Assembly (NCBI GenBank): GCA_903822495.1
Contig: CAIJPD010000066.1
Location: forward strand, 62,001 to 126,000
Source: an uncultured Chloroflexota bacterium
GTDB taxonomy: Bacteria > Chloroflexota > Limnocylindria > Limnocylindrales > CSP1-4
Direction of reading: 5' to 3'
Length of the DNA: 64,000 nt
Translations under genes and position numbers: made by a program
Part shown: piece by piece, positions 19,916-39,441 of the stretch
Position numbering within the stretch: position 1 is the stretch's first letter
Layout of the letters: each line of letters begins with the position of its first letter
Notes under the pieces: model-generated
Told to the model about the DNA's origin: nothing
Databases searched by the model: none
Seen by the model: the letters and a program-made list of their open reading frames with translations, nothing else

Positions 19916-20416
<501 letters not shown>

Positions 20417-20428
20417 GGGGAGGCTTCG

Positions 20429-22831
20429 ATGGCGATCGACGCACTCGGCGCTTCCATCAAGCGCCGCGAGGATCCCCGGTTCATCACCGGCGCGGGCAAC
20501 TACATCGATGACATCAAGCTGCCGTCGATGGTCCATATGGCCATCCTGCGCAGCCCGTATGCCCACGCCAACATCCGCTCGGTCGACGTCACGGCCGCCA
20601 GGGCCATGCCCGGCGTCATCGACGTGATCGTCGGCGCGGACGTTCCCTACAACCCCCTGCCGATGGTCTGGCCGGCGGGCGGCTCGGCCGGCCTCCGGAA
20701 CAACGTGAACTCGCCACGGATCCTGGCGACCGACAGCGTCAAATGGACCGGCGAGGGCGTGGCCGCGGTTGTCGCGGAGACACCGGCCCAGGCGTTCGAT
20801 GCCCTGGCCGCAATCGTCGTGGACTACGAGCCGCTGCCGGCCGTCGTCGACGCCGAGAAGGCCGTCGCGCCGGGCGCGCCGCAGCTCCACGAGAACGCAC
20901 CCAACAATGTCGTCTTCGAGTGGAGCGTGGGCGACAGCGCCGGCACGGAGGCGGCCATCGAGGCGGCCGAGGTCGTGGTCCGCCAGCGACTGGTGAACCA
21001 GCGCCTGATCCCCAACCCCATGGAGACGCGCGGCGACATCGGCTGGTACAACCCGGGCACCGAGGAGTACACCCTCTGGATGTCCAGCCAGACGCCGCAC
21101 ATCCAGCGGCTGCTGGTCGGCATCTTCACCATGGGCATCCCGGAGCACAAGCTCCGCTGCATCGCGCCGGATGTCGGCGGCGCCTTTGGAACCAAGATCT
21201 TCTGCTACGCCGACTATGCCCTGGTCCTGCTGGCCTCCAAGCGGATCGGTGGGCGCCCGGTCAAGTGGATCGAGGGTCGGCGCGAGAACTACCAGTCCAC
21301 GATCCACGGGCGCGACCACATCACCTACCTCGAGATCGCCGGCAAGCGTGACGGCGAGATCACCGGGCTGCGGGTCAAGACGCTGGCCAATCTCGGTGGG
21401 CGGCTGTCCACCATCGGCCCGGGCATCCCCACGACGCTGTACGCCAGGGTCCTGAGCGGCTGCTACAAGATCCCCAACGTGTACGCCGAGGTGACCGGCG
21501 TCTACACCAACACGACCTTCGTGGACGCCTACCGGGGCGCCGGCCGACCCGAGGCGACCTACGTGATCGAACGGGCGATGGACCTGTTCGCCCGCGAGAT
21601 CGGCATGGACCGCGCGGAGATCCGGCGCCGCAACTTCATCGCCCCCGACGCCTTCCCCTACGACAACCCGTCGGGCCTCGGGACCGCGTCCGGCGGCGCG
21701 AAGATCTACATCGACTCCGGCAACTACGAGCCGGCGCTCGACAAGGCCCTCGCGATGGTCGGCTACGACGACCTGGACGCCCGGAAGGTCGAGGCCCGCC
21801 TGCGCGGCAAGTACCTGGGCCTCGGCCTGAGCACCTATCTCGAGGTCTGCGGGGTCGCGCCCAGCAAGTGGATCGGCGCGGTCGGCGAAGGCTGGGGTGC
21901 CGCGATGTGGGAGTCGTCCAACATCCGCGTCCACCTGACCGGGAAGGTCGTCCTCACCATGGGGACCTCCCCGCAGGGACAGGGTCACGAGACGACCTAC
22001 TCGCAGGTCATCAGCCACGAGCTGGGCGTGCCGGTGGACGACGTCATCGTCCAGCACTCGGACACCCAGGGGACGCCGTTCGGCTACGGGTCGTACGGCA
22101 GCCGGACTTCGTCGGTCGGGAGCACGGCGGCGATCAAGGCCGCGGGCAAGATCCGGGAGAAGGCGAGGCGCTACGCCGCGCACATGCTCGAGGCGGCGCC
22201 CGAGGATATCGAGATCGACGGCGCCAACTACAGCGTGAGGGGCAGCCCGGACAAGGTGAAGACCCTCCAGGAGATTGCCTTCGCGCTTGACCTTGCATTC
22301 GATGCCCCCGTGGGCATGGAGCCGTACCTCGACGAGACGGCGTACTACGACCCGACGAACTGCACGTGGCCGTTCGGGACGCACATCGCCATCGTCGAGA
22401 TCGACGAGGAGACCGGGCATGTCGACCTGGTCCGCTACGTCGCCGTGGACGATGTCGGCAACAAGATCAACCCGATGATCGTGGACGGCCAGCTCCACGG
22501 CGGGATCGCCCAGGGCGTCGGCCAGGCGCTCTGGGAGGGCGCCGTCTACGACGACCAGGGCCAGCTGTTGTCCGGCTCGCTGCTGGACTACGCGCTGCCC
22601 CGGGCCGCCTGGCTGCCGTCGTTCGAGCTCGACGAGACCGTCACGCCGTCGCCGGTCAACCCCATCGGGGTCAAGGGCGTCGGTGAGGCCGGCGCCATCG
22701 CCAGCACCGCAGCCGTGTCCAATGCCGTGGTGGACGCGCTGGGCCCGCTGGGGGTCCGCCACCTCGACATGCCGTATACGCCACAGACCGTCTGGCGCGC
22801 GATCCAGACCGCGAAGGGAGGCCAGGCATGA
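20429..22831 (+). CDS. Molybdenum hydroxylase large (molybdopterin cytosine dinucleotide) subunit
   Basis: An 800-residue catalytic subunit. It has the cofactor motifs DVGGAFGTK, QGQGHETT and the active-site Glu753 in GVGEAGA. The active-site loop reads AYRGAGR (near 367), not the AYxCSFR of true form I CO dehydrogenase, so it is a form II enzyme that probably hydroxylates an organic substrate with water-derived oxygen. The ATG follows a GGGGGAGG, 12 bp after the small-subunit stop; its stop overlaps the FAD-subunit ATG (ATGA). Substrate unknown. The neighbouring DMSO-reductase-family gene has a matching promoter element. Confidence 0.95.
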   Translation: MAIDALGASIKRREDPRFITGAGNYIDDIKLPSMVHMAILRSPYAHANIRSVDVTAARAMPGVIDVIVGADVPYNPLPMVWPAGGSAGLRNNVNSPRILATDSVKWTGEGVAAVVAETPAQAFDALAAIVVDYEPLPAVVDAEKAVAPGAPQLHENAPNNVVFEWSVGDSAGTEAAIEAAEVVVRQRLVNQRLIPNPMETRGDIGWYNPGTEEYTLWMSSQTPHIQRLLVGIFTMGIPEHKLRCIAPDVGGAFGTKIFCYADYALVLLASKRIGGRPVKWIEGRRENYQSTIHGRDHITYLEIAGKRDGEITGLRVKTLANLGGRLSTIGPGIPTTLYARVLSGCYKIPNVYAEVTGVYTNTTFVDAYRGAGRPEATYVIERAMDLFAREIGMDRAEIRRRNFIAPDAFPYDNPSGLGTASGGAKIYIDSGNYEPALDKALAMVGYDDLDARKVEARLRGKYLGLGLSTYLEVCGVAPSKWIGAVGEGWGAAMWESSNIRVHLTGKVVLTMGTSPQGQGHETTYSQVISHELGVPVDDVIVQHSDTQGTPFGYGSYGSRTSSVGSTAAIKAAGKIREKARRYAAHMLEAAPEDIEIDGANYSVRGSPDKVKTLQEIAFALDLAFDAPVGMEPYLDETAYYDPTNCTWPFGTHIAIVEIDEETGHVDLVRYVAVDDVGNKINPMIVDGQLHGGIAQGVGQALWEGAVYDDQGQLLSGSLLDYALPRAAWLPSFELDETVTPSPVNPIGVKGVGEAGAIASTAAVSNAVVDALGPLGVRHLDMPYTPQTVWRAIQTAKGGQA

Positions 22832-23685
22832 CGTCGCTCGCGTTCGACTACCGCCGGCCGGACAGCGTGGACCAGGCCCTGGCCCTCCTCGCCGAGGCGG
22901 ACCCGGGCACCAAGGTGCTGGCCGGGGGCCACAGCCTGCTGCCGATCATGAAGACCAGGCTGGCCCAGCCGGGGCGGCTCATCGACATCGGGCACCTGGG
23001 CGAGCTGCGCGGCGTGCACCGCCTGGGCGACGGTGGGCTCTCGATCGGCGCCCTGACAACCTATTCCCGGCTCCTGGCGAACCCGGCCATCACCGTCTAC
23101 GGCCTGCTGGCGGACGTCCTGCCCACCATCGGCGATGTCCAGGTGCGCAACCGGGGGACGATCGGAGGAGCGGTCGCCCACGTGGACCCCGCCGCCGACC
23201 TGCCGGCCTGCCTCCTGGCGCTCGACGCCGAGGTGGTGGTCCGGTCGGCTCGAGGCGGTCGAACCATCGCCCTCACCAGCTTCTTTGAAGGTGCATTCAA
23301 CTCGGTGCTCCTCCCCGACGAGCTCATTACGGAGATCCGCCTGCCGGCCGCGTCGGGTGATTACGGGTCCGCCTACCGCGCCCAGGAGCAACCGGCTTCG
23401 GGGTACGCGCTCGCGGGGGCCGCCGTGGTCATCGGCCGCTCGACCGGTGGAGGCGGCCGGTTCGACCGGGCGGCCATCGGGATCACCGGGGTCGGCGAGT
23501 GCCCCTACCGGGCCTCGGCGGTGGAGCAGGAGTTCCTCAGCTCCGGCGATCCGGCCGCCGCCGCCCACGCCACGGACGGCGTCCTGGTCGCCTCCGACAT
23601 CCACGCCGACCGCGAGTACCGGACGGCGCTCATCAGGGTCCAGGTCCGCCGGGCGCTCGAGGCCGCGATCGAGCGCGTAGGCTGA
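22828..23685 (+). CDS. Molybdenum hydroxylase FAD-binding subunit (CoxM-like)
   Basis: A 285-residue FAD subunit. It has the family's two flavin motifs, AGGHSLLPIMK (about 31-41) and the TIGGAVAHVDPAADLP segment following QVRNRGT. The C-terminal CO_deh_flav_C domain contains the GITGVGECPYRA stretch. It accepts electrons from the 2Fe-2S subunit. It is coupled to the large subunit by ATGA. A 12-bp hairpin 23 nt after its stop probably ends the operon. Confidence 0.95.
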   Translation: MTSLAFDYRRPDSVDQALALLAEADPGTKVLAGGHSLLPIMKTRLAQPGRLIDIGHLGELRGVHRLGDGGLSIGALTTYSRLLANPAITVYGLLADVLPTIGDVQVRNRGTIGGAVAHVDPAADLPACLLALDAEVVVRSARGGRTIALTSFFEGAFNSVLLPDELITEIRLPAASGDYGSAYRAQEQPASGYALAGAAVVIGRSTGGGGRFDRAAIGITGVGECPYRASAVEQEFLSSGDPAAAAHATDGVLVASDIHADREYRTALIRVQVRRALEAAIERVG

Positions 23686-23708
23686 GCGCAATCGCAGCAG
23701 CATCACCC

Positions 23709-23736
23709 GCCTCCGGCGCCGAGAGGCGCCGGAGGC
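23709..23736 (+). terminator. 12-bp GNRA-loop hairpin after the first molybdenum hydroxylase operon
   Basis: GCCTCCGGCGCC (23709-23720) pairs perfectly with GGCGCCGGAGGC (23725-23736) around a GAGA tetraloop. No U-tract follows, so it is either a high-GC terminator or an RNA-stabilising hairpin. It sits directly before promoter element copy 2. Confidence 0.65.
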
Positions 23737-23742
23737 TCGATT

Positions 23743-23777
23743 CCCACTTGCCACCGACGCCTCGGGGTGCCAGCATC
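23743..23777 (+). promoter_or_regulatory. 35-nt promoter-like element, copy 2 (DMSO-reductase-family gene)
   Basis: It matches 19771-19805 at 31 of 35 positions. TTGCCA (23748-23753) and CAGCAT (23771-23776) are again 17 nt apart. It lies 59 nt before the GTG at 23837. The shared element implies joint control with the molybdenum hydroxylase operon. Confidence 0.6.
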
Positions 23778-23836
23778 CCCCCAATCACCCGCCCGCGCGG
23801 GCCGATCAGCATCGACGCAAGCAGTGGAGGCGCCCC

Positions 23837-26455
23837 GTGGCAGTCCAGCTTCCGGTGATCAATGCGGGCGGGGTCCCGGGGGTGGGTCCGGGCGCCGGCA
23901 CCGGGGCTGGCGGGGGCGTCAAGGAAGACGTCTGGCTCACCACCGGCTGCGACATGTGCTTCAACGCCTGCACCGTCCGCGTCCACCGCGTCGACGGCGT
24001 CGCCGTGAAGATCGAGGGCGTGCCGGACGCGCCGCCCAACTACGGCCGGACGTGCGCCAAGGGCCTGTCGGCCCTCATGAACGTCTACAGCCCGAACCGG
24101 GTCAAGGCCCCCATGGTCCGCACGAATCCCAACAAGGGGATCGGCGTCGATCCGGGCTGGAAGGAGGTCTCCTGGGAGCAGGCCATGGTCCTGCTCGCGA
24201 CGAAGCTGCGGGCCGCCGTGGAGAAGGACCCGCGCGGGATCCTGGGCCTCACCTTCGACATCTACAGCTACCCGCTCCTGCGCGCCTTCGCCTACGCGCT
24301 GGGGACGCCCAACGTCACCTCGGGCTCCGCCGGCATGTTCTGCGGCAACGCCTCGCACCCCGTGGCGTACACGCTGACCGCCAGCAACGACATGCACCCC
24401 GACATCAAGCACTGCAACTACCTGCTGATGGCCGGGGCGTCGCTGGGCTTCGTGGGCGGCCACAACTCCATGGGGCTCAGCCGCGAGATGGCCGACGCCC
24501 GCGCCCGCGGCATGAAGCTGGTGGTGGTGGACCCGGTCCTCACCGCGGCCGCGTCCCACGCCGACGAGTGGCTCCCCATCCGTCCCGGCACCGATGCCGC
24601 GCTGGCGCTCGGGATCATGCACCAGTGGGTGCTGGTCCTGGACCAGTACGACAAGGCGTTCCTGCGCCGCTACTCCAATGCCACGTACCTGGTTGGACAG
24701 GACGGTCGGTACGTCCGCGACCCGGAGTCCGGCAAGCCCCTGGTGGGCATCGCGGCGACCGGGGCTACCGGCCGCTTCGACCAGGTGGACCCGGAGGCGG
24801 CCGCCCTGGAGGGCGAGTTCGTGGTCGGCGGCGTCGCCGTCAGCCCCGCATTCGTCCCGTTCAAGCAACACCTGGCGCCGTACACCGCGGCCCGCGTCCA
24901 GGAGATCACCACCATCCCGGCGGGGTCCATCACACGGATCTCCAGGGAGCTGGTGGAGGCCGCCGGGATCGGCGGGACCATCGAGATCGACGGGGACACC
25001 TACCCGCTTCGATCCGCCGCCGTCACCTTCTACCGCGGCATCTCGGCCCACCGCCACGGGATGATGAGCGGGCAGGCCATGGGCCAGCTCAACATCCTCC
25101 TGGGTGCCGTGGATGTCCCCGGCGGCACGCTCAACTCGTCGTCCACGGGACCGACCTGGGGGCCAAAGCTGGACCCCGACGGGATGATCACCCCCGGCAA
25201 CCCCCGGGGCGGCCACATGAAGTCCGCGCTGCCGCGGCGCGAGATCAAGCCGCCGGAGACGCTCGAGCTGCTGGAACTCTTCCCCACGGCCGTCTACAGC
25301 CGCGCGATGGTGGGCCACTCGCTCCTCCACGGCGAGGAGTACGGCCTCACCTACAAGTGCGAGGTCCTGCTCCAGTGTCGCGGCAACATCATGGCCAGCG
25401 GCCCGGACCCGGAGATCATGTCGGAGGCGCTCCGGACCATCCCGTTCATCTGCTCGATGAACACCTACCCGGACGAGACCGCCCAGTTTGCGGACCTGCT
25501 CCTGCCGGACACCCATTCGCTGGAACGCCTCGTCCCCATCGTGTCCAACCCGGACGGCCTGATGGATCCGCCGCTCCCCGGGCGGCCGTATAGCTGGAAC
25601 ATCCAGCACCCCATCGTCAAGGCCGTCCCGCTGGCCCGCCACTGGGGCGAGGTGCTCCTGGACGCCGCGGACCGCGTGGGTGTGCTCCCCGACATGTACA
25701 CGGCACTCAACGCGATGGCCGTCCTGGAGGGGCCCAACGCGCTGGCGCGCGACAAGAAGTACACGTGGGAGGAGATCTCGGACCGCTGGCTTCGATCGCA
25801 GCTGGGCGAGGAGCACGGGCTGGCCTACATGGTCGAGCACGGCTACTACTCGGGTGAGAACCGGCCGGCCAAGTACAGCTACCCAAAGATCCACAACGCC
25901 GGCCGGGTGCCGCTCTACCTGGAGCACTACATCGATGCCGGCCTTGACGTGAAGGCCTACACGGACATGCAGGGCGTCCCGTGGGACACCGGCGACTACA
26001 CGCCCATGGTGGACTGGAAGCCGTGCCTGACGCCGGAGGAGGCCCCGGCCGAATTCGACCTCTGGGTGGTGAACAACAAGCTCACCTTCCTCGCGGGCAC
26101 GTACAGCGCGGAGAACCCGGTCCTGATGGACATGGCGGACCGCAACAGCCGCGTGTTCACCATCGGGATCAACCGTGCCACGGCGCAGAAGAAGGGGATC
26201 CGCGACGGCGACACGATCGTCCTGGAGACGCCCCATGGCCGGACGGCCGAAGGCGTCGCCCGCCTGACCGAGGGGGTCCACCCCGAGTGCCTGGCGGTGC
26301 CCTCGATCCTGGGCCGCAAGAAGCTGGGCCGCAAGGAATCGCAGGGCAAGGGCGTCCACGTGAACTCGCTGCTCAAGTACACGCCGGACCGGATGGACGC
26401 GCTCTCCGCCGCGATCGACTCGTGCGTCAAGGTGAAGGTGCGCAAGGCCAACTAG
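23837..26455 (+). CDS. Molybdopterin oxidoreductase, DMSO-reductase family
   Basis: An 872-residue bis-MGD enzyme. A [4Fe-4S] site uses Cys38, Cys41, Cys45 and Cys73 (CDMCFNAC and RTCAKG). Cys169 in GSAGMFCGN is in the region of the molybdenum ligand, though alignment is needed to confirm it. The C-terminal cofactor-binding domain (PAEFDLWVVNNK, then LETPHGR) is complete. The first 30 residues are Gly/Val-rich without a twin-arginine signal, so it appears cytoplasmic. No iron-sulfur or membrane subunit is adjacent. This differs from polysulfide/thiosulfate reductases and recalls soluble members such as transhydroxylase or hydratase types, but no specific reaction can be assigned. GTG 23837 follows GGAGG. 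Confidence 0.9.
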   Translation: MAVQLPVINAGGVPGVGPGAGTGAGGGVKEDVWLTTGCDMCFNACTVRVHRVDGVAVKIEGVPDAPPNYGRTCAKGLSALMNVYSPNRVKAPMVRTNPNKGIGVDPGWKEVSWEQAMVLLATKLRAAVEKDPRGILGLTFDIYSYPLLRAFAYALGTPNVTSGSAGMFCGNASHPVAYTLTASNDMHPDIKHCNYLLMAGASLGFVGGHNSMGLSREMADARARGMKLVVVDPVLTAAASHADEWLPIRPGTDAALALGIMHQWVLVLDQYDKAFLRRYSNATYLVGQDGRYVRDPESGKPLVGIAATGATGRFDQVDPEAAALEGEFVVGGVAVSPAFVPFKQHLAPYTAARVQEITTIPAGSITRISRELVEAAGIGGTIEIDGDTYPLRSAAVTFYRGISAHRHGMMSGQAMGQLNILLGAVDVPGGTLNSSSTGPTWGPKLDPDGMITPGNPRGGHMKSALPRREIKPPETLELLELFPTAVYSRAMVGHSLLHGEEYGLTYKCEVLLQCRGNIMASGPDPEIMSEALRTIPFICSMNTYPDETAQFADLLLPDTHSLERLVPIVSNPDGLMDPPLPGRPYSWNIQHPIVKAVPLARHWGEVLLDAADRVGVLPDMYTALNAMAVLEGPNALARDKKYTWEEISDRWLRSQLGEEHGLAYMVEHGYYSGENRPAKYSYPKIHNAGRVPLYLEHYIDAGLDVKAYTDMQGVPWDTGDYTPMVDWKPCLTPEEAPAEFDLWVVNNKLTFLAGTYSAENPVLMDMADRNSRVFTIGINRATAQKKGIRDGDTIVLETPHGRTAEGVARLTEGVHPECLAVPSILGRKKLGRKESQGKGVHVNSLLKYTPDRMDALSAAIDSCVKVKVRKAN

Positions 26456-26467
26456 GATCGGGTCCCT

Positions 26468-27281
26468 GTGCCTCCCTGGAAGCGACCAAACCTCGATACG
26501 CCCGATACCCGCTTCATCCGCGGTCGGCTGGCGGATGCCGTCTTCGAGGGTTCCGGCCGGGTCGTTTTCGATCAGGCCACGGTCGAGCGCGTCCGATTTG
26601 CGGGGCTCCGGTTCGAGTCGTTCGAGGCGAACGGCGGAGTCTTCCTGGATTGCGACTTCAGTGGCGTCGTGTTCGCCGATGGGACGTTCGCATCGGCGAT
26701 CCAGACGCAGTACGTCGGGTGCGTCTTCGACAAGGCCAACCTGCGCGACATCGCAGCGGGGCAGGCTCGCTTGGTCCGGTGTCGGTTCGGCGACCTGCGC
26801 CTGGCCCATTGGACGTCGTATGCGGCCGAGTTCATCGACTGCACGTTTTCGGGACGGTTGCGGACGTGCGTGTTTTCCGGCACGCCCGACGGCATCTGGG
26901 CGAATCCCGCTCGGCTCCGGCCAAGGCGGTCAGTCAACGCCTTTCGCGGCAACGACTTCTCGGGCTGTGAGCTCCGCGACGTGCTCTTCCGAAACCGGAT
27001 CGACCTTGATCAGCAGCGTCTGCCGACCGGAGGACTACCTTCTCCTCGACAGACCTGGCGCCCGAATCGAGTCTGCGCGTCGCGCCGTCATGGCGGACCC
27101 GCCCGGCGAGCTGCGCGCCGACGCCCTTCGGCTTCTCGATGCGTATGCCGCAGCGTTTTGGAGAGAGCGCAAGGTGTTCATCCACCGCAGGGAGATGGCC
27201 GGGATCGTGCCGGACGCCGCGATCGAACGGGTCTTCGAACTGTTGCAGGAGGGTGCACCTGGGCCGGTAGCGCCGTCGTGA
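26468..27281 (+). pseudogene. Pentapeptide-like beta-helix protein, frameshifted
   Basis: The first frame, GTG 26468 to about 27030, encodes about 187 residues of pentapeptide-repeat-like sequence (FLDCDFSGVVFADGTF, VGCVFDKANLRDI, NDFSGCELRDV). It then breaks at RIDLDQQRLPTG. The natural continuation, EDYLLLDRPGARIESARRAV to a helical tail ending EGAPGPVAPS, lies in another frame and stops at 27281. Inserting one G at about 27029-27031 (CCGGAGG) joins them seamlessly. Without the correction the first frame runs Arg-rich into the MazE gene. It is either a true single-base deletion or an assembly error. Function unknown; it starts 12 bp after the molybdo-enzyme. Confidence 0.65.
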
Positions 27282-27316
27282 GTCTTGGCTGGTCCCTATC
27301 CACAACGCATCGGCGT

Positions 27317-27322
27317 TATACT
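27317..27322 (+). promoter_or_regulatory. Leaderless-type -10 box for mazEF
   Basis: TATACT, 6 nt before the antitoxin ATG at 27329, close to the TATAAT consensus. No Shine-Dalgarno sequence can fit. Confidence 0.6.
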
Positions 27323-27328
27323 CCCGGT

Positions 27329-27568
27329 ATGAAGACCGCCGTGTCCGTGCCCGACGACCTGTTCGCCCAGGCGGATCGCCTGGCCAGCCGTGAGCGCCGC
27401 TCGCGGAGCGAGGTGTACAGCGCCGCCCTCCGTGAGTACCTCGCCCGGCACGCGCCCGACGAGGTGACCGCGGGCATGGACGCCGCCCTGGCAGCGATCG
27501 ATGAGCCCGCCGCCGATGGCTTCGTATCCGCCGCGGCCCGCCGGACGCTCGAGGGCGCCGACTGGTGA
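27329..27568 (+). CDS. MazE-like ribbon-helix-helix antitoxin
   Basis: A 79-residue antitoxin. The N-terminal ribbon-helix-helix (KTAVSVPDDLFAQADRLA, then RSRSEVYSAALREYL) would bind its own promoter as a dimer. The acidic C-terminus (about 48-79) would wrap the toxin and end in the RRTLEGADW segment. It is preceded 6 nt by a TATACT box and overlaps the toxin start (GTGA), the normal antitoxin-first order. The long frame that appears to fuse it with the upstream pentapeptide gene is an artefact of that gene's frameshift. Confidence 0.9.
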   Translation: MKTAVSVPDDLFAQADRLASRERRSRSEVYSAALREYLARHAPDEVTAGMDAALAAIDEPAADGFVSAAARRTLEGADW

Positions 27569-27909
27569 TCGCCCAAGGGGAGGTCTGGTGGGCCGACCTC
27601 GGCGACCCAGCCGGTTCGGCCCCCGGGTTCCGGCGGCCCGTCGTCGTCGTCCAGGCCGACGCCTTCAACGCCAGCACCCTTCGGACGGTGGTCTGCGTCG
27701 CCCTGACGAGCAACGTCCGATGGGCCGATGCGCCGGGCAATGTGCTCCTGTCGGCGCGGGCGACCGGGCTCCCAAAGCCGTCGGTGGCGAACGTCTCGCA
27801 ATTGGTCACTCTGGATCGCTCGGCGCTGACGGAGCGAGCCGGACGCCTCTCGACGTCGAACCTCCAACTGGTCCTGGCCGGCATCGACGTGGTCCTGGGC
27901 CGCGGCTGA
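27565..27909 (+). CDS. mazF: MazF/PemK-family mRNA interferase toxin
   Basis: A 114-residue toxin with the MazF fold: the N-terminal GEVWWADLGDPAGSAPGFRRPVVVVQ (read as two parts, 5-16 and 17-30) contains the conserved G-x-RPVVVVQ strand and loop. The following TVVCVALTSN and SVANVSQLVTLDRS strands supply the usual Thr/Ser and Gln active-site face. It would cleave specific RNA sequences when free of the antitoxin. The GTG start shares bases with the antitoxin TGA. Confidence 0.92.
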   Translation: MIAQGEVWWADLGDPAGSAPGFRRPVVVVQADAFNASTLRTVVCVALTSNVRWADAPGNVLLSARATGLPKPSVANVSQLVTLDRSALTERAGRLSTSNLQLVLAGIDVVLGRG

Positions 27910-29095: not shown

Positions 29096-30511
29096 CTACG
29101 AGCGCGGACCCTCGGGGCGCGGCCGCGAGTAGCGCGGGATGTATTTGCCGTAGCCCTCGCGGCCCACGATCTTCCCGTGCTCCATCACCACCTCGCCGCG
29201 CACGATGGTGTGGGTGGGCCAGCCGGTGACCTCCCAGCCGTCGTACAGGCCCCAGTCGGCGAACGACTGCATGTACTCCGGGCTGACCGTCATCTTGCGG
29301 TCGATGTCCACGATGGCGAAGTCCGCGTCCGAGCCCACCTGGATGGTGCCCTTCTCGGGGTAGAGGCCCCAGACCCGGGCATTGTTGGTGGACAGCACCC
29401 AGGCGAGCTTCTCCAGCGAGATGCGACCCTTGTGGTAGCCCTCGCTGAGCATGATGGGCAGGAGCATCCCGGAGCCCGGGAAGCCCGGGACGGCCGTCCA
29501 GATGTCCTCCTGGACCTTGTCGGCGAGCGGCGTGATGGTGGAATGGTCCGAACCCACGCACGAGATGGCGCCGTTGCGGATCCCCTCCCAGAGCGCCTCC
29601 TGGCTCTCCAGGTCGCGGAGCGGGGGATTGACCTTGCCCAGCCGGCCTACCCTGTCGTTGTCGTACTTGGTCAGGACCAGGTAGTGCGGGCAGGTCTCGG
29701 CGATGACGTCCACGCCCTGGGCCTGCGCCTCGCGGACCCACTGCACGCCGCGCCCGATCGTCATGTGGACGATGTACAGGCGGCTGCCGGTCTCCTTGGC
29801 GTACCAGATGGCCCGCCGGGTGGCCTCCTCCTCCGCGATGTCGGGGCGGGCGTCCGTCCACGCCTTGAGGTCGTCCCGGCCGGCGGCGATGTACTCGCCC
29901 TTGAGCTTGTGGATGATGGTCATGTTCTCGGCGTGGACCATCATCATGGCGGGGTAGCCCACCTCCTTGATGACCCGCAGGCCCTCCAGGACCTGGCCGT
30001 CGTCCATGGCGCTGATCCCGAAGACGCTCGCCTCGTCCTGGGTGTAGGCCATGTAGAACTTGTACGAGCTGATCCCCAGCCTGGCCATCTCGGGGATCTC
30101 GCGGATCTGCGCCGTGCTGCCCAGCACGGCCGAGAACGCCACATCGATGGTGGCGTACTTGTCGACCGCCTCCTTGCACCACGGGAAGTGCTCGAGGAAG
30201 GAGAGCTGGTTGTCCTCGCGGTTGAGGAGGGTGGGGATGATCGTGGTCACCCCGCCGATCGCCGCGGACTTCGACTCGGTCCTGAGGTTGATGTCGAACT
30301 TGTTGGAGAACGTCTGCAGGTGGATGTGCGGATCGATGATCCCGGGGAAGACGTGGTGTCCGCCCGCGTCGAGCGTCCGGGCCGCGGACGGCATCGACTC
30401 CTGCTCACCCAGGGCGACGATCTTCCCGTCCTTGACGGCGATCGACTGCTCGCGGATGCCATGCTCGCTGACGACCTTGCCGCCCTTGATGACGAGATCG
30501 GCCTGGCTCAT
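29096..30511 (-). CDS. Hydantoinase/dihydropyrimidinase-family cyclic amidohydrolase
   Basis: A 471-residue amidohydrolase-superfamily enzyme opening a cyclic amide such as hydantoin, dihydropyrimidine or allantoin. All binuclear metal ligands are visible: His62 and His64 (DPHIH), the carboxylated Lys151 (SSYKFYM), His193 (VHAEN), His249 (IVHM) and Asp322 (GSDHS). The beta-sandwich flank (DLVIKGGKVV) is intact. Its ATG overlaps the TGA of the UbiD gene (ATGA), so ring opening would follow decarboxylation in the same operon. Substrate-loop residues were not compared, so the subclass is open. Confidence 0.93.
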   Translation of the reverse strand: MSQADLVIKGGKVVSEHGIREQSIAVKDGKIVALGEQESMPSAARTLDAGGHHVFPGIIDPHIHLQTFSNKFDINLRTESKSAAIGGVTTIIPTLLNREDNQLSFLEHFPWCKEAVDKYATIDVAFSAVLGSTAQIREIPEMARLGISSYKFYMAYTQDEASVFGISAMDDGQVLEGLRVIKEVGYPAMMMVHAENMTIIHKLKGEYIAAGRDDLKAWTDARPDIAEEEATRRAIWYAKETGSRLYIVHMTIGRGVQWVREAQAQGVDVIAETCPHYLVLTKYDNDRVGRLGKVNPPLRDLESQEALWEGIRNGAISCVGSDHSTITPLADKVQEDIWTAVPGFPGSGMLLPIMLSEGYHKGRISLEKLAWVLSTNNARVWGLYPEKGTIQVGSDADFAIVDIDRKMTVSPEYMQSFADWGLYDGWEVTGWPTHTIVRGEVVMEHGKIVGREGYGKYIPRYSRPRPEGPRS

Positions 30512-31932
30512 CGGGTGCGCTCCTCCAGGTACTGGGCGAGGTCGATCCGGTCGGCGCCCACGGTGGACGCCTCCGTGAAGCCGTTGCGCTGCTCCTCGGT
30601 CAGGTCGCTCCGGATCGTGGCGTCCATGAGCAGCTTGGAGTTGGGATACTCGCGGTGGAAGCTGGACGGGTCGTACGACGCGCCCTTGGCCGCCGGGATC
30701 ACCAGGATCCGCTGATCGCGGGTGATGGGGTCCACCACCTGGAAGCGGCGGGCCAGGGCGCCCAGGACCGCCTCGTCGGAGTAGATGTCGACGTCGTCGT
30801 CGACCGCGATGATCAGCTTGATCTGGGGCACCGCGCCCAGCGCGGCCAGCATCACGTTCATCTGCTCGCCGCGCTCGCGTCCCTCCACCGTGGGTCGCTT
30901 CTTCATGGCGATGTAGCAGTGGAAGCCGTAGCCGCTGGCGGGGACGTGCACGCCGGTGATCCCGCGCGACGCCTGGCGGGTGGCCCGCAGGATGGCGACC
31001 TCGTGGCAGACCGCGGCCATGTTGGTCGCGTCGGGGTGGCCGGAGAAGGCCAGCTGCAGGATGGGGTTGCGCCGGTGCGTGATCGCCGAGACCTCCGTCA
31101 TGGGCCCCTGCTTGACCCGGCTGTACGAGCGCGACATGTCGGCGAAGGGCGCCTCCGGGTAGCGCCCGCCGGGCATGATCCGGGCCTCGATGACCACCTC
31201 GGCCTCGGCCGGGACCTCCAGGTCGAGCGTCCTGGCCCGGACCAGCTCCACGGGGCGGCCCAGGAGGCCGCCGGCCAGGGCCAGCTCGTCGGTGCCGGTG
31301 GGGGCGGAGTACGAGGCGGCCAGGGCGAGCAACGGATGGACGCCGGGGAGGATGGCGACCTCCAGGGGCACGCCTCGCTCCTCGGCCTTCTTGAACAGGT
31401 CGCTGATGTTGGCGATGGACGTCAGCGATGGGACGAACGTCCGCGGCCCGTGCTGCATGTAGCGGTAGACGCCCATGTTCCGGCGGCCGGTCTCGGGATC
31501 CCTGGCGATGGTCACGCCCAGCGAGACATACGGCGCGGCGTCCCGTTCGTGGTGGGTGACCAGCGGGATCCGGCCCAGGGTGGCGTCGTCGCCCAGCAGG
31601 ACCACCTCCTGGGACGGCGCGGCGGGACCGCCGGAAACGAGGATGGGGTCGATCGGGGACTCCAGGCGCGCGGCCAGAGTCTCCGTCACCCGGTCCGGCG
31701 CGCAGCCCAGGAACGCGGCGATCTTGGACCGGGTGGCAAACAGGTTGCCGGCGATGGCCCAGCCGGGGAAGCCTTGCACGGCATCGAACCGGACGGCGGG
31801 GAAGCGCCCGTCGCGCTCGAGGCGGTCGAGGACGGCGGTCACCTCCCAGGCGCGATCCACCGGGCGCGCGACCGTCTCCAGGTCGCCGGCGGCGTCGAGG
31901 AGATCGAGGGCGGCGCGCAGGTCGTCGGCCAT
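30508..31932 (-). CDS. UbiD-family prenyl-FMN decarboxylase with altered active-site Glu
   Basis: A 474-residue (de)carboxylase expected to use prenylated FMN made by UbiX. Asn152 and Arg157 (NMGVYR) match the cofactor-binding residues of the family. The usual EGPFGEFTGYY motif reads PEAPFADMSRSYS: the first Glu (Glu260) is kept but the second, the proton-shuttling Glu, is Asp265, and the following aromatic pair is lost. This is a divergent subfamily. It lies between the 2Fe-2S subunit of a molybdenum hydroxylase and the hydantoinase, implying decarboxylation of a ring-hydroxylated intermediate. UbiX is encoded nearby at 38602. Confidence 0.92.
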   Translation of the reverse strand: MADDLRAALDLLDAAGDLETVARPVDRAWEVTAVLDRLERDGRFPAVRFDAVQGFPGWAIAGNLFATRSKIAAFLGCAPDRVTETLAARLESPIDPILVSGGPAAPSQEVVLLGDDATLGRIPLVTHHERDAAPYVSLGVTIARDPETGRRNMGVYRYMQHGPRTFVPSLTSIANISDLFKKAEERGVPLEVAILPGVHPLLALAASYSAPTGTDELALAGGLLGRPVELVRARTLDLEVPAEAEVVIEARIMPGGRYPEAPFADMSRSYSRVKQGPMTEVSAITHRRNPILQLAFSGHPDATNMAAVCHEVAILRATRQASRGITGVHVPASGYGFHCYIAMKKRPTVEGRERGEQMNVMLAALGAVPQIKLIIAVDDDVDIYSDEAVLGALARRFQVVDPITRDQRILVIPAAKGASYDPSSFHREYPNSKLLMDATIRSDLTEEQRNGFTEASTVGADRIDLAQYLEERTR

Positions 31933-31997: not shown

Positions 31998-32528
31998 TCA
32001 GCCGGCCACGTCGTCGGCCCGCAGGCCCGTGATGGACGCCGACGGGGCCGATGGCTCGCCGCGCAGGACGCGGGCGGCGTCCTGGATGCTCTCCAGGATG
32101 AAGTGGTAGCCGGTGCAGCGGCACAGGTTGCCCGAGATACCGTGCCGGATGTCGTCCTCCGTGGGATCCGGGTTGGCGTCCAGCAGCTGCTTCGCCGAGA
32201 GGATCATCCCGGGGGTGCAGTAGCCGCACTGCAGGCCCTGGTTGGCGATGAATGCCTGCTGGATGGGGTGGAGGTCGTCCGGGGAGGTGTACAGGCCCTC
32301 CACGGTGAGGACGTCGGCGCCGTCCGCGTCGGCCGCCAGCACGCAGCACGACTTCACCGTCCGGCCGTCGAGCATGACGGTGCAGGCGCCGCAGTTGCCG
32401 GTCCCGCATCCGATGTGCGTGCCGGTCAGGCGGAGCTGGTCGCGGAGCATGTCCGCGAGGATCATCCGCGAGTCCACCTCGACGGTCCGCGCCCGGCCGT
32501 TGACGGTGAGCTTGATGGTGGTCTGCAT
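31998..32528 (-). CDS. Molybdenum hydroxylase [2Fe-2S] subunit, second set
   Basis: A 176-residue small subunit with both clusters: Cys41/46/49/61 (CGTGNCGACT, KSCC) and Cys101/104/136/138 (CGYCTPGM, CRCTGY). It is third of the large/FAD/small set on the minus strand, 58 bp after the FAD subunit, with AGGAG before its ATG. A C-terminal extension of about 30 residues (SAPSASITG) is longer than in the copy at 19916. Confidence 0.95.
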   Translation of the reverse strand: MQTTIKLTVNGRARTVEVDSRMILADMLRDQLRLTGTHIGCGTGNCGACTVMLDGRTVKSCCVLAADADGADVLTVEGLYTSPDDLHPIQQAFIANQGLQCGYCTPGMILSAKQLLDANPDPTEDDIRHGISGNLCRCTGYHFILESIQDAARVLRGEPSAPSASITGLRADDVAG

Positions 32529-32586: not shown

Positions 32587-33447
32587 TTACGCGGCAGCCG
32601 CGCCCGCGGCTGCCAACAGTGCGCGGCGGGCGTGGATGACCGCCATCTCGCGGCGGTACTCCGCGTCGCCGTTGAGGTCCTCGAACGGCTGGGGGCAGGC
32701 GGTGCGAACCGCGTCCTCGAAGGCCGCCAGGGCGGCTTCGGTGAGCCCGGCGGCGACCGCCGCGCTGGCGTCCACCACCACCGGTGCCCCGGCCACGCCG
32801 CCGATGGCGACGACCGACGCTCCGGAGCCGGCCGGCCGGACCACGGCCGCGGCGTTGACGATGGCGAACGAGCCTTCCACGCGGGCCAGCCGCCGGTACG
32901 CGCCGCGGGCGGCTCCCTGCGACGGGACCCGGATCTCGGCGATCAGCTCGTCGGGCGCCAGGGCCGTGGCCATGACATCGATGAAGAACTCGGCGGCGGG
33001 GATGACCCGCTCGCCGCGGGTGCTGCGGACCACGACGGATGCCGCCAGCGCGACGAGCGTGGGCAGGTAGTCCGCCGCGGGATCCGCGTGGGCCACGCTG
33101 CCGCCGATGGTGCCGCGGTTGCGCACCTGCACGTCGCCGATGTGGCGCGCCGCGTCCGCCAGGAGCGGGGCGTGGCGGGCCACCAGCGGCGACGCGATCA
33201 CGTCGTTGTGGCGGGCCGTTCCGCCGATCCGGAGCGTGGCCGTGGCCGCGTCCTCGGTGATCGCGCGCAGCTCGGGAACGTGGTTGAGCGAGATCACGAT
33301 CTCGGGGCGGGCCAGGCCCAGGGTCATGGTGGGGACCAGGCTCATGCCGCCGCCCAGGATCTTGGCGTCGTCGCCGTGGCGGGCCAGCAGGTCCAGTGCC
33401 TCCGCGACGGACCCGGGCCGGTGGAGCTCCAGCTCGGCGGTGATCAT
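32587..33447 (-). CDS. Molybdenum hydroxylase FAD-binding subunit, second set
   Basis: A 286-residue CoxM-like protein. The flavin motifs LGGGMSLVPTM (about 31-41) and TIGGSVAHADPAADYLP are present after QVRNRGT, and the CO_deh_flav_C domain (VAIGGVAGAPVV) follows. It overlaps the large subunit stop by ATGA. A poly-Ala C-terminus is unremarkable. Confidence 0.95.
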   Translation of the reverse strand: MITAELELHRPGSVAEALDLLARHGDDAKILGGGMSLVPTMTLGLARPEIVISLNHVPELRAITEDAATATLRIGGTARHNDVIASPLVARHAPLLADAARHIGDVQVRNRGTIGGSVAHADPAADYLPTLVALAASVVVRSTRGERVIPAAEFFIDVMATALAPDELIAEIRVPSQGAARGAYRRLARVEGSFAIVNAAAVVRPAGSGASVVAIGGVAGAPVVVDASAAVAAGLTEAALAAFEDAVRTACPQPFEDLNGDAEYRREMAVIHARRALLAAAGAAAA

Positions 33448-35900
33448 CGGGCGGCCTCCACGGCGTCAGCCGGACGGGCAGCGCCCGTGGCGGCCGGTGA
33501 CGGCGACGGGCCGAAGCCGGACCCGTCCTTTCGGGGTGCGGTCCGGAGCGACTGCCAGACCCGGTTGGGGGTGAGCGGCAGGTCCGTGATCCGCAGGTCA
33601 AGCTCGGGGAAGGCGTCCTCGATCGCGCCGCACAGCGCGCCAAGCGTGGAGCCCAGGCCCGATTCACCGGCGCCCTTCATGCCCAGCGGCGTGAACGGCG
33701 AGGGCGTCTCCTGGTGCTCGATGGAGAACATCGGCATCTCGATCGCCGTGGGAATGGTGTAGTCCATCAGCGTGGCCGTCTGGAGCTGGCCGTTCTCGTC
33801 GTACGAGATGTTCTCGTACATCGCGGAGCCGATGCCCTGGGTGATGGCCCCGTGCAGGTTGGCGTCCACCAGGAGCGGGTTGATCACGGTCCCGGCGTCC
33901 TCGACCAGCGTGTACTCCAGCACCTTGACCATCCCGGTCTGAGGGTCCACCTCCACCACCACGGCGCTGCTCCCAAAGGGCCAGGCCGGGTAGTTGGAGA
34001 AGCGGCCCTGCGTCTCGGGCTGGTGATAGATATTGCCCATCCGGAAGTAGCGGGTGGACTCCAGGCCCGGTTCGACGCCTTCGGCGTGCTTGCCGAAGGT
34101 GTGTCGGTAGACCTGGTTGACGACCGCGTTGAAGGCGACCGATCGATCCGGGCTGCCCTTCACGAAGAACGTGCCGTCCGCGGCCTCGAGGTCCGCCGGG
34201 GCGGCCTCCAGCATGGATGCGGCCACCTCCGCCAGCTTGTTGCGGAGGTCCTGCGCCGCGAGCTGGGTGGCGGAGCCGCCGTACATGGTGCCGCGCGACG
34301 AGTAGTTGCCCAGGCCGTACGGGCACAGCTCCGTGTCGCCCTGGATCACCCGGATGGTCTCCAGCTTGCAGCCGAGGACGTCCGCCGCGATCTGGGCAAA
34401 GGCGGTCTCGTTCCCGCAGCCCGGCGAGGTGACGCCGGTCAGGATGGTGACCTCGCCGGAGGGCGCGACCCGGACCGTGGCGCCGTCGTAGGCGGAGATC
34501 ATCAGCGCGCCGGGCATGGCGCAGCCCTCGGGCGTCAACTCCTGGCCCAGGCCCAGCCCGATTCGACGCCCCTCTGCCGCGGCCTGCGCCTGCAGCGCGC
34601 GGAACCCGGCGTAGTCGATCCTCTTGAGCAGCTTGTCGAGCGCGCCCTGGTAGTTGCCGGAGTCCAGGATGGCGCCGGAGGGCTGGGAGTGGGGGAAGTC
34701 GTCCGGGCGGATGAAGTTGGCGTAGCGGATCGCCGTCCGGTCCAGGCCGGTCTCGCGCGCCACGTGGTCCATGATCCGGTCCATGACGAAGGACTGAGCG
34801 TCTTTCCCGAACCCGCGGTAGGCGTTCCACGGGCACTTGTTGGTGACGACGACGTAGAGCTGGACGTTGGTGTCGGGGATGTCGTAGCCGCCCGGCAGGC
34901 TGTAGCCGGTGACAAACGACTGGCCCCAGCCCAGGAGCGCGGTGGGCGCCCCAACGTCGGCGATGACCTTGATCCGCAGCCCGTGAACGCGGCCGTCGGC
35001 GTTGAAGCCCACGGTGTATTCGAACCGGGTGTCACGCGAATGGCCGGTGGCCATGAAGTTCTCGGCGCGCTCCTCGATCCACTTCACCGGCCGACCGGTG
35101 ACCATGGCGGCATGGGCCACCACCGGCTCCTCCTGGAAGGGCGGCTGCTTGAGGCCGAATCCGCCGCCGACGTGCGGCTGGATCACGTGGATCGAGTTCT
35201 CCGACATGTTGAGCGTCTCGGCCAGGAAGCTGCGCAGCGGGTGCGGGTTCTGGGTGGATTCCCAGAAGGTCAGCTTCCGCGCGAACGCGTCCCACTGGGC
35301 GACGCAGCCGCGGCCCTCGATAGACACACCGGTGATCCGGTTGGAGCGGACCGTCCCGGTCACGACGCGGTCCGCGCCGGCCAGGGCGGCGTCCACGTCG
35401 CCGGCGATCCAGTCGCGGGTGATCAGCAGGTTGTCGCCCCAGGCCGGCTCCACGAGGTCCGCCCCCGGCTCCATCGCCTTGATGGGGTCCGTGACGACTG
35501 GCAGCTCTTCGTAGTCCACCTCGATGTCGTCCAGGGCGGCGGCGGCGGTCCAGCGGTCCTCGGCGACCACGGCCGCGACCACCTCGCCCACGTACCGGAC
35601 ACGGTCCTTGACGATGGGGTACCAGAGGACGCCCTTGGCGCCGATTTCACGGGTGTTCCAGGCCTCCGGGATGGGGCGCAGGTCGCGGTAGGCGTCCTCG
35701 CCCGTCAGGACCTTGATGACGCCGGGGCGCGCCATGGCCGCGGAGATGTCCACGGACCGGATCCGGGCATGGGCGTATGGGCTGCGCAGGAAGGCGAGGA
35801 AGGCCATGTCCGGGAGGACGACGTCGTTGACGTACGTCCCCTTGCCGGCGGCCAGCTGGGTGTTGGTCAGCCCGGTGACGCGGCGTCCGACCTGCTTCAA
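33444..35900 (-). CDS. Molybdenum hydroxylase large subunit, second set
   Basis: An 818-residue catalytic subunit with the FGLKQPP cofactor region, the loop NAYRGFGK (form II-like, no CO-dehydrogenase Cys) and the catalytic Glu746 in KGAGESG. Unusually, the motif normally written GQGxET reads GCGNET, putting Cys495 where a pterin-contacting Gln is usual. A TTG start at 35900 is used because GGGAGG lies 7 nt upstream and no ATG/GTG fits. It precedes the FAD and 2Fe-2S subunits. Substrate unknown; the operon suggests a cyclic or aromatic carboxylate. Confidence 0.94.
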   Translation of the reverse strand: MKQVGRRVTGLTNTQLAAGKGTYVNDVVLPDMAFLAFLRSPYAHARIRSVDISAAMARPGVIKVLTGEDAYRDLRPIPEAWNTREIGAKGVLWYPIVKDRVRYVGEVVAAVVAEDRWTAAAALDDIEVDYEELPVVTDPIKAMEPGADLVEPAWGDNLLITRDWIAGDVDAALAGADRVVTGTVRSNRITGVSIEGRGCVAQWDAFARKLTFWESTQNPHPLRSFLAETLNMSENSIHVIQPHVGGGFGLKQPPFQEEPVVAHAAMVTGRPVKWIEERAENFMATGHSRDTRFEYTVGFNADGRVHGLRIKVIADVGAPTALLGWGQSFVTGYSLPGGYDIPDTNVQLYVVVTNKCPWNAYRGFGKDAQSFVMDRIMDHVARETGLDRTAIRYANFIRPDDFPHSQPSGAILDSGNYQGALDKLLKRIDYAGFRALQAQAAAEGRRIGLGLGQELTPEGCAMPGALMISAYDGATVRVAPSGEVTILTGVTSPGCGNETAFAQIAADVLGCKLETIRVIQGDTELCPYGLGNYSSRGTMYGGSATQLAAQDLRNKLAEVAASMLEAAPADLEAADGTFFVKGSPDRSVAFNAVVNQVYRHTFGKHAEGVEPGLESTRYFRMGNIYHQPETQGRFSNYPAWPFGSSAVVVEVDPQTGMVKVLEYTLVEDAGTVINPLLVDANLHGAITQGIGSAMYENISYDENGQLQTATLMDYTIPTAIEMPMFSIEHQETPSPFTPLGMKGAGESGLGSTLGALCGAIEDAFPELDLRITDLPLTPNRVWQSLRTAPRKDGSGFGPSPSPAATGAARPADAVEAAR

Positions 35901-36024: not shown

Positions 36025-36867
36025 CTAGACGTCCCAGCCGCCGTCCACCGTCAGGCACTGGCCCGTCACCTGCCGCGATTCGTCGCTGGCGAGGTAGAGG
36101 CAAGCGTAGGCGATGTCCACGGCCGACGTGAAGCGCTTGATGGCCTGCTCGGACAGGTAATCGTTGAAGACCTGCTCGTAGCTGATGCCCTTGGTGGCCG
36201 CCTTGCCCCGGATGATCTTGTCCATCCGGTCGCCGTAGATGGGCCCCGGCGCCACGCAGTTGCAGTTGATGTTGTGGACGCCAACCTCCAGGGCGACCGT
36301 CCGGGTGATGCCGCGGACGGCCCACTTGGAGGCCGAGTAGGAGACGCGGTTCTTGTAGCCGCGCAGGCCGGAGGTTCCGGCGATGTTCACGATCTTGCCG
36401 GACTTGGCCGCGATCATCGACGGGAGGGCGGACTTGATGGACAGGAACGTACCCTTGGCGTTGACGCCCAGGACGTGCTCCCACTCCTCCTCGCTGACGT
36501 TCTGGGCGGCCGTCTCGATGGGGCCGATGACCCCGGCGGTGTTGACCAGGACGTCGATCCGGCCGTAACGGTCCAGGACGGCCTGGACCATGGCCTGGCA
36601 CGAATCGCCGCTGGTGACGTCGACCCCGACCGAGATGGACGCCAGGCCGGGCAGTTCGGCGCGGATCCGGGCCGCCTCGGCGTCGAGGTCCTCGATGCTC
36701 CGAGCGGCCAGGGCGAGCGAGGCACCCTCGTGCGCGAACAGCTCGGCGATGGTGCCGCCCATCCCCTTGGCGCCGCCCGTGATCAGGACGACCTTGCCTT
36801 CCAGCCGGCGGCTGCCGCGGTCGAGGTTGAGGCGCTCCGTGTCGGAGGCGCGGATGGCGAGTGACAT
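36025..36867 (-). CDS. SDR-family NAD(P)-dependent dehydrogenase
   Basis: A 280-residue short-chain dehydrogenase. The TGGAKGMGGTIAE nucleotide loop follows an N-terminal tail of about 25 residues. DVTSGDSC, then VNTAGVIG (NNAG variant), and the catalytic YSASK with preceding Ser/Thr (AGTSG) are present. The VDGGWDV end is typical. It would oxidise or reduce a hydroxyl/keto group in the pathway. AGGAGGG precedes the ATG by 9 nt. It lies between the DUF6282-type gene and the molybdenum hydroxylase operon. Confidence 0.94.
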   Translation of the reverse strand: MSLAIRASDTERLNLDRGSRRLEGKVVLITGGAKGMGGTIAELFAHEGASLALAARSIEDLDAEAARIRAELPGLASISVGVDVTSGDSCQAMVQAVLDRYGRIDVLVNTAGVIGPIETAAQNVSEEEWEHVLGVNAKGTFLSIKSALPSMIAAKSGKIVNIAGTSGLRGYKNRVSYSASKWAVRGITRTVALEVGVHNINCNCVAPGPIYGDRMDKIIRGKAATKGISYEQVFNDYLSEQAIKRFTSAVDIAYACLYLASDESRQVTGQCLTVDGGWDV

Positions 36868-36895: not shown

Positions 36896-37837
36896 CTAGA
36901 CGGACAGGTTGAGCAGCTCGGCGGGATGGACCTGGGTCATCAGCGTGAGCATGTCGCGGGAGACCCCGTAGTCCAGCAGCGTGGCGATGATCATCCGCAG
37001 GCCCTCGGGGTGGGGGGCGGCGGAATACTGGCCCAGGTCGGAGGTGAGGATCAGCTTCCGACCGTTGTTGGCGTTGATCCAACCGGCCAGCTCCACCGGG
37101 TCCTGCTCGTAGAACGTCGGCGAGACGCACGAGATTGCCACGTATTCCAGGTACGCGCCGTTGTCCAGCAGTTCCTGCTGGATGGTCAGGTCGTACTTGG
37201 TCAGGGCCCAGTTCACGTGGGTGACCAGGAACTTCTTGATCCCGCGCTTGTTGGCCTCGGCCTGGAGAATCCGTGTCTCATCCAGGTGCAGGTGGGCGCT
37301 GGCGATGGTGACGTCCGCCTCGGCCACGAGGTCCAGGATCGTCAGGGCCGCCTGGGTGATCTTCCCGTCCTCACCGAGGATGGTCACGCCGGCCCCGGGC
37401 AGCTGCTTCTTGGGCCGCCCAAGCTGCGGGTAGTCCGACATCTTGAAGTACTCGGAATGCCACTTGCTGTGGTTGGTGGGCATCCAGATGACCTTGGCGC
37501 CATGGTGGATCGCCGCCTGGACCACGTGCGGGTTGATCCCGCCAACGGACCGGTTGAGGACGATGGCCCCGTTGATGCTCATGTCCGGGAAGGCCTTGCC
37601 CACGTGGTAGGCCCGCCCCGTGGACGACGAGTCGTGATCCTTGATCACGAATCCTCGCATGCCGTACTCCTGGGCCAGCTGGGCCAGGTCCGCGTCATCC
37701 AGCGGGCGCTTGAAGAGCGCCGGGTGGGTGTGGGCGTGCATGTCGATGGCGCCCTTGAGGATCTCCAGGTCCGGTCGCGGTCGGAGCACGGTCGGGCTCG
37801 TCCTTTCGTTGGCTGGTTCGGCGGTCGGTGTGGCCAT
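36896..37837 (-). CDS. DUF6282-type amidohydrolase-like protein
   Basis: A 313-residue protein with an HAHTHP motif near residue 34 and several later His/Asp residues (VIWMPTNHSKWHS, SAHLHLDE, VTHVNW, LTSDLGQ) in the order expected of a metal-dependent TIM-barrel hydrolase. I recognise it only as like proteins labelled DUF6282. It is the first gene of the minus-strand operon, 58-110 nt below an operator-promoter. The ATG at 37837 is preferred; an in-frame ATG at 37873 would add 12 residues. A lactonase or amidase role is a guess from the fold and the hydantoinase downstream. Confidence 0.72.
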   Translation of the reverse strand: MATPTAEPANERTSPTVLRPRPDLEILKGAIDMHAHTHPALFKRPLDDADLAQLAQEYGMRGFVIKDHDSSSTGRAYHVGKAFPDMSINGAIVLNRSVGGINPHVVQAAIHHGAKVIWMPTNHSKWHSEYFKMSDYPQLGRPKKQLPGAGVTILGEDGKITQAALTILDLVAEADVTIASAHLHLDETRILQAEANKRGIKKFLVTHVNWALTKYDLTIQQELLDNGAYLEYVAISCVSPTFYEQDPVELAGWINANNGRKLILTSDLGQYSAAPHPEGLRMIIATLLDYGVSRDMLTLMTQVHPAELLNLSV

Positions 37838-38054: not shown

Positions 38055-38510
38055 ATGCGAGTCGAAGGCACGTTTCGCTTCCCGGCGCCGCGCGAGACGG
38101 TCTTCGCGCTGCTGCTGGACCCGCAGGTCCTGGCGGGCTGCATACCGGGCTGCGAACGGCTGGAGGCGATCGGGCCTGACCAGTACGAGGCCACCGTCAA
38201 GGTGGGCGTGGGCGCCGTGAAGGGCGTCTACAAGGGCCAGGTCCAGCTGGTGGATCGGCGGGAGCCGGAGGCGTTCCGGATGCTGGTCCAGGGCAAGGGC
38301 GGCCCCGGCTTCATCAAGGGCGAGGCCACGGTCACGATCACGCCGGTGGCCGACGCGCCCGACGAATGCGACGTTGTCGTGGTGGGCGACGGGCAGGTTG
38401 GTGGCCTGATCGCCGGGGTCGCCCAGCGGCTCCTCGGCGGGGTTGCGACAATGATGCTGAACCAGTTCTTCGAATGCCTCCGCGGCAAGGCCGCCCTGCC
38501 CCGGGTTTGA
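38055..38510 (+). CDS. CoxG-like SRPBCC-family protein
   Basis: A 151-residue protein of the CO-dehydrogenase subunit G group (START/SRPBCC fold): GTFRFPAPRETVFALLLDPQVLAGCIPGCE is typical (positions 5-34, in two motifs), and VVVGDGQVGGLIAGVAQRLL is the C-terminal helix. In known systems CoxG recruits the molybdenum hydroxylase to the membrane; here it probably serves the divergent hydroxylase at 32-36 kb. AGGAG lies 9 nt before the ATG. It is followed by ubiX on the same strand. Confidence 0.9.
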   Translation: MRVEGTFRFPAPRETVFALLLDPQVLAGCIPGCERLEAIGPDQYEATVKVGVGAVKGVYKGQVQLVDRREPEAFRMLVQGKGGPGFIKGEATVTITPVADAPDECDVVVVGDGQVGGLIAGVAQRLLGGVATMMLNQFFECLRGKAALPRV

Positions 38511-38601
38511 CCCAGGGACGGGTCTCCGGGTCGGTCCGCCGCCGAGGAGCCAGTGGTCAGGGCGAGCCCCGTCCCGGCCCGGCAGGCTAGTGGGAGACAC
38601 C

Positions 38602-39417: not shown

Positions 39418-39441
39418 TGCGCCGGGCGCCGACTCCACCAC

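Follow-up and report, generated by a model that had tools for sequence, protein, structure and literature searches.

The UbiD gene analysed in this work lies on the minus strand of the window (the whole stretch of 64,000 nucleotides that was analysed, from an uncultured Chloroflexota bacterium). The minus-strand genes follow one another in the order DUF6282, SDR, xdhL, xdhM, xdhS, UbiD and cyclic amidohydrolase, and a plus-strand group (CoxG, UbiX, IclR) diverges from them:

29096-30511, minus strand: cyclic amidohydrolase, dihydropyrimidinase/hydantoinase-like (TIGR02033, 339 bits, below the equivalog cut-off of 393.25)
30508-31932, minus strand: UbiD-family prFMN-dependent (de)carboxylase, 474 aa (TIGR00148, Pfam domains and motif residues)
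31138-31155, minus strand: codons of E-A-P-F-A-D (residues 260-265), the catalytic motif with Asp265 (DNA pattern match G000:C66:93138-93155)
31998-32528, minus strand: small [2Fe-2S] subunit of a molybdenum hydroxylase, xdhS (family profile matches)
32587-33447, minus strand: FAD subunit of the molybdenum hydroxylase, xdhM (family profile matches)
33444-35900, minus strand: large molybdopterin subunit of the molybdenum hydroxylase, xdhL (none of the 13 NCBIfam models listed reached its cut-off)
36025-36867, minus strand: short-chain dehydrogenase/reductase, SDR (family profile matches)
36896-37800, minus strand: DUF6282 protein, start uncertain, open frame to 38200 (PF19799, 204.9 bits)
38055-38510, plus strand: CoxG-family protein, divergent (PF06240)
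38590-39252, plus strand: UbiX-family flavin prenyltransferase (NF004685, 269.3 bits, cut-off 188; TIGR00421, 242.8 bits, cut-off 108.9)
39388-40317, plus strand: IclR-family transcriptional regulator (family profile matches)

The start codon of the amidohydrolase gene overlaps the stop codon of the UbiD gene, and the start of xdhM overlaps the stop of xdhL. The entire arrangement is conserved in a congener (L014/L043, Chloroflexi bacterium isolate RH-23may17-645; arrangement seen in L043), whose DUF6282 orthologue is 92% identical over 300 aa. A UbiX gene scoring above the cut-offs of both models is thus at hand, and its product likely supplies the prFMN of the window UbiD. The xdhL product contains AYRGFG and GMKGAGESG, motifs that suggest a hydroxylase and not a CO dehydrogenase. 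The amidohydrolase, in addition to falling short of the D-hydantoinase/dihydropyrimidinase model TIGR02033, reached 340.5 of 647 bits with PRK13404 and stayed under the cut-off of every model among the matches listed (25 of 62); judged by its sequence, it appears to be a relative of the D-hydantoinases/dihydropyrimidinases rather than a proven member.

Several other parts of the window were recorded. A second molybdenum hydroxylase set (19568-26455, plus strand) adjoins a large molybdopterin oxidoreductase (23837-26455), and a stretch 62% identical to this oxidoreductase adjoins another UbiD of the same genome (L080). The frame at 26468-27568 (plus strand) gave weak pentapeptide-repeat matches and has, by eye, an antitoxin-like end; after it comes a PemK-like frame (27565-27909, plus strand), also called by eye. 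A Hydantoinase_A/Hydantoinase_B (oxoprolinase-type) pair identified by Pfam (47259-51706, minus strand) lies by an iron-containing alcohol dehydrogenase (51759-52943); pairs of this type also include aromatic-ketone carboxylases.

The UbiD protein and its catalytic motif

The longest open frame of the UbiD gene reaches an ATG at 32409 (633 aa). The start at 31932 was favoured because the frame then does not run into xdhS and fits both the orthologue and the Pfam N-terminal domain. The product exceeded the cut-offs of the three Pfam domains (PF20695, UbiD_N, 61.8 bits; PF01977, central, 191.7 bits; PF20696, UbiD_C, 74.5 bits) and that of TIGR00148 (248.4 bits, cut-off 244.85). It remained below those of the VdcC model (hydroxyarylic acid decarboxylase subunit C, NF041204; 229.1 bits, cut-off 650), the menaquinone-biosynthesis decarboxylase model (TIGR03701; 172.4 bits, cut-off 495.9) and the E. 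coli-type UbiD model (NF008175; 140 bits, cut-off 788).

Translation of 30508-31932 places EAPFADMSRSY at residues 260-270, so that residue 265 is Asp; the conserved Arg is residue 157. An earlier note on this DNA had reported this motif and an Asp265 where both remaining UbiDs of the window have Glu, and translation and ungapped alignment bore this out (EGPYGEFTWYY in 59198-60598 and EGPFGEFTGYY in 61120-62442). The motif aligns gap-free with that of PtHmfF (EGPFGEYPRYY), indicating that Asp265 occupies the acid/base site, that is, the proton-shuttle position held by Glu282 in Aspergillus niger Fdc1. Glu260 and Asp265 are the only acidic residues between 254 and 275; consequently, the sequence alignment offers no alternative Glu for the shuttle site. 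Arg157, Glu260 and Asp265 together make up the R-Xn-E-X4-(E/D) motif.

The orthologue in the congener (96% protein identity, syntenic) has an identical motif, and dN/dS between the two genes is 0.16 (NG86), indicating purifying selection; a sequencing error is therefore unlikely. An AlphaFold model built from a four-row alignment had a mean pLDDT of 44.9, and of less than 50 over residues 92-303, so that its pocket is not interpretable. The window UbiD is a member of the prFMN decarboxylase family of a known type, and its Asp is a published and widespread variant.

Recurrence of the gene association

The window genes were compared by tblastn with 35 other stretches (4-25 kb, some ended by contig ends), 34 of which hold a UbiD. 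An XDH-type large subunit was present in nine of these 34, adjoining the UbiD or up to several kb away. A gene like the window amidohydrolase was found in only two (L050 and L076), indicating that the association of UbiD with amidohydrolase is not general.

L050 (G161:C82, 6748-14793) belongs to a different Chloroflexota class. Its genes lie on one strand in the order xdhM-xdhL-xdhS-UbiD-amidohydrolase, so that this distant contig shares with the window the order xdhS-UbiD-amidohydrolase as well as Asp at the acid/base site (EGPFGDFLQFY). It differs in that xdhM precedes xdhL and in that a second, Glu-type UbiD adjoins. Protein identity between the two clusters is 33-45% (36% for UbiD, 33% for the amidohydrolase), and the L050 amidohydrolase gave its best scores as an allantoinase/dihydroorotase-like protein. 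L076, on contig C13 of the same genome as the window, has an amidohydrolase and a UbiD side by side, and this UbiD is of the Glu type (EGPYGEWMGYY). Consequently, Asp and an amidohydrolase neighbour do not always occur together.

The genome of the window carries 12 UbiDs, 25 molybdopterin-domain match rows (about 23 large-subunit genes after joining split matches) and seven full-length dihydropyrimidinase-family genes, two of which are directly beside a UbiD (window and C13). Relatives of the window amidohydrolase at E <= 1e-95 occurred in six of 400 genomes, including this genome and the congener. Five other contigs were selected for their amidohydrolase, two of them short or starting at the gene. 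In none of these does a UbiD adjoin the amidohydrolase gene; on one, a UbiD lies on the opposite strand at a distance of about 1.8 kb.

UbiD matches were also obtained in seven plasmid records, and three stretches from these were examined (two Paracoccus, one Azoarcus). In both Paracoccus plasmids (L055 and L056) a Glu-type UbiD is accompanied by UbiX, a GTP-binding protein and two amidohydrolase-family genes, and a nucleobase:cation symporter is encoded near. Family searches of L056 gave two Amidohydro_2 proteins, a CobW GTPase and a cytosine-deaminase-like protein, followed by XDH genes. These two clusters possibly serve the degradation of a nucleobase-like acid. The Azoarcus stretch is a phenylphosphate carboxylase cluster and has, of the window-type neighbours, UbiX only. 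Taken together, the recurrence data lean towards N-heterocyclic substrates. The literature covered, to which most subscription journals do not belong, contained no paper on UbiD clusters with hydantoinase, dihydropyrimidinase, XDH or nicotinate, nor one that treats UbiD in Limnocylindria or in a sequence similarity network of the family; given this coverage, the result is weak evidence of absence.

A proposed route of ring degradation

We favour, with moderate confidence, the reading that the window UbiD is a working prFMN decarboxylase that uses Asp265 as acid/base and performs one step of a heteroaromatic catabolic operon. Its substrate would probably be a heteroaromatic acid, probably N-heteroaromatic. 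The product of the UbiX gene would make the prFMN. The molybdenum hydroxylase (xdhL/M/S) would add oxygen to the (hetero)aromatic ring, and UbiD would then remove the ring carboxylate: the acid substrate would bond to prFMN near Arg157, CO2 would leave, and Asp265 would protonate the adduct and so allow product release, a role usually taken by Glu and by Asp in E. coli UbiD. The dihydropyrimidinase-like amidohydrolase would next open the resulting cyclic amide, and the SDR and the DUF6282 protein may act on the pieces from ring opening. The enamidase step of nicotinate fermentation follows a similar logic. This probable ring degradation, given by the operon context, is probably the more interesting part of the locus, rather than the Asp change.

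Against this reading stands the lack of a close characterised homologue. The best solved match to the window UbiD is HmfF of Pelotomaculum (PDB 6h6v, 237 bits), a furandicarboxylate decarboxylase that has the same motif frame, but it is only 34% identical and has Glu at the acid/base site. The operon might accordingly break down a carbocyclic aromatic acid or a furan, with an amidohydrolase whose target is not a ring amide. We regard this as doubtful, though it is the alternative that fares best. The scores of the amidohydrolase, below the equivalog cut-off, leave its substrate unfixed, and enzymes of the XDH family can also use aldehydes or CoA-bound compounds. However, no acyl-CoA ligase was present among the genes searched between 27.9 and 41.7 kb of the window, and the residue linked to furan specificity is missing. 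According to PMC7976604, Asn318 of PA0254 and the corresponding His of HmfF are key to substrate recognition. The comparison was made via HmfF rather than PA0254, and His 296 of the 6h6v chain was taken as the H297 of that paper (the next chain residue is Leu). The window UbiD has Ala302 at this position, and membership in HmfF was rejected on these grounds. Of 44 rows, 16 have His in this column, 10 have Asn, seven have Asp and two, the orthologues, have Ala. His310 of the window UbiD replaces an Arg that is present in HmfF and in 22 of the 44 rows.

Under the favoured reading of a heteroaromatic catabolic operon, a further and more tentative possibility is that the locus encodes an undescribed route for N-heteroaromatic acids, with molybdenum hydroxylase, prFMN decarboxylase and amidohydrolase acting in sequence. 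The set xdhS-UbiD-amidohydrolase may then have been assembled more than once in Chloroflexota, both known cases being of the Asp type.

Aspartate at the acid/base site and an isolated lineage

The earlier note had suggested that the change from Glu to Asp may mark a subfamily with a distinct substrate or reaction direction. Bailey et al. (2017, PMC5818171) give the family motif as RXnEX4(E/D) and state that part of the family, canonical UbiD among them, has Asp. The genome record of E. coli K-12 agrees: its UbiD (NP_418285.1) reads EGPYGDHTGYY, with Asp at the acid/base site as in the window UbiD. The two proteins are otherwise 28% identical and differ in the residues after Asp (HTGYY in E. 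coli, MSRSY in the window) and in role, the E. coli enzyme serving quinone biosynthesis. A. niger Fdc1 shares the network Arg173/Glu277/Glu282; the wild type has Glu at the shuttle site, and its E282D variant carries the residue set of the window UbiD. According to the same paper, E282D is active (apparent kcat 0.63 vs. 9.4 per s and apparent Km 50 vs. 10 µM in the wild type), has a pH optimum of 7 like the wild type, places the carboxylate similarly and retains fast H/D exchange, while E282Q is inactive. Fdc1 acts on acrylic acids and belongs to a different branch of the family (PMC5818171 and PMC7976604). An active E282D and an Asp in canonical UbiD, a decarboxylase, argue against Asp as a marker of direction, and a carboxylase-only reading of the window UbiD was rejected.

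Of 251 genomes of the phylum, 131 had matches to a DNA pattern for E[GA]P[FY][GA]D. Eight of 30 fetched loci were UbiDs with the motif EGPFGDHTGYY, most alike and 41.6-44.5% identical to E. coli UbiD. The other 22 had no UbiD similarity at E 1e-5, and an estimate of Asp and Glu frequencies from this pattern was discarded as too noisy. In 43 sampled rows, which were not drawn at random but comprise best hits, UbiDs of the same genome and several references, the shuttle site was Asp in four (both orthologues, the L050 protein and E. coli UbiD) and Glu in 39. Near-duplicate rows, including the third window UbiD (61120-62442), were left out of the trees and column counts. On a tree that included three of the Asp-pattern UbiDs and was computed without the Asp/Glu column, Asp required three changes of state, at least two of them forced by well-supported branches. 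Constraining the window pair and L050 to one clade cost 12.9 log units, which the AU test rejects at the borderline (p 0.049). Asp thus does not appear to mark a single subfamily, and the suggestion of the earlier note is not supported on this point: by itself, Asp265 does not appear to signal a subfamily, a reaction direction or a substrate.

The loss of an aromatic pair, also claimed in the earlier note, holds as far as Met266 and Ser269 are present, but both positions vary in the family and Tyr270 is kept. Position 266 is F, Y or W in 37 of 43 sampled rows and V, S, H or N once each; Met occurs there in no row but the two orthologues. Of the 43 rows, 28 have Tyr at position 269, the others Thr, Ser, Leu, His or Phe, and 33 have Tyr at position 270. 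Met266 is nonetheless unusual.

The window UbiD and its orthologue form their own long branch (1.05 changes per column), and the exact window motif was found in two genomes only. The congener is the sole close relative found: no further orthologue turned up among 400 genomes drawn from the phylum (of which 14 had any match at E <= 1e-60, with up to four candidates per genome being scored) or 177 of the class, and a single-protein contig scan, sensitive to close relatives only, found the congener alone. Beyond the congener, identity to the nearest relatives in the sample is 33-42% by the search figures and at most 38.5% on our own alignment. The distinct substrate proposed in the earlier note is thus plausible, given the long branch, the restricted motif and Ala302 at the specificity site, but not because of Asp265; Ala302 is the better hint.

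The isolation of this branch in two genomes, together with Ala302 and His310 in place of the His and Arg of HmfF, would also suit a functionally distinct subfamily marked by Asp265 with Met266/Ser269, for example a carboxylase or an enzyme with another proton path. We consider this improbable, as the canonical decarboxylase and UbiDs on other parts of the tree also have Asp, Fdc1 E282D keeps a similar pH profile and fast exchange, and the Glu-type UbiD of C13 is also beside an amidohydrolase. That the combination of Ala, Met and Ser in place of usual motif residues reflects a degenerate, inactive protein is very improbable, considering the retained Arg157, Glu260 and acidic residue 265, the low dN/dS, the intact frame, the overlapping operon genes and the synteny in a second genome.

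These results remove a tempting misreading: Asp at the acid/base site of a UbiD is ordinary and predicts neither direction nor substrate. If the reading as a heteroaromatic catabolic operon is true, the locus would provide a testable route, in which a ring is hydroxylated, then decarboxylated and finally opened at its amide, in a Chloroflexota lineage whose genome has 12 UbiDs and about 23 molybdenum hydroxylase large-subunit genes, and the unusual Ala302 would be a starting point in the search for a new heteroaromatic substrate.
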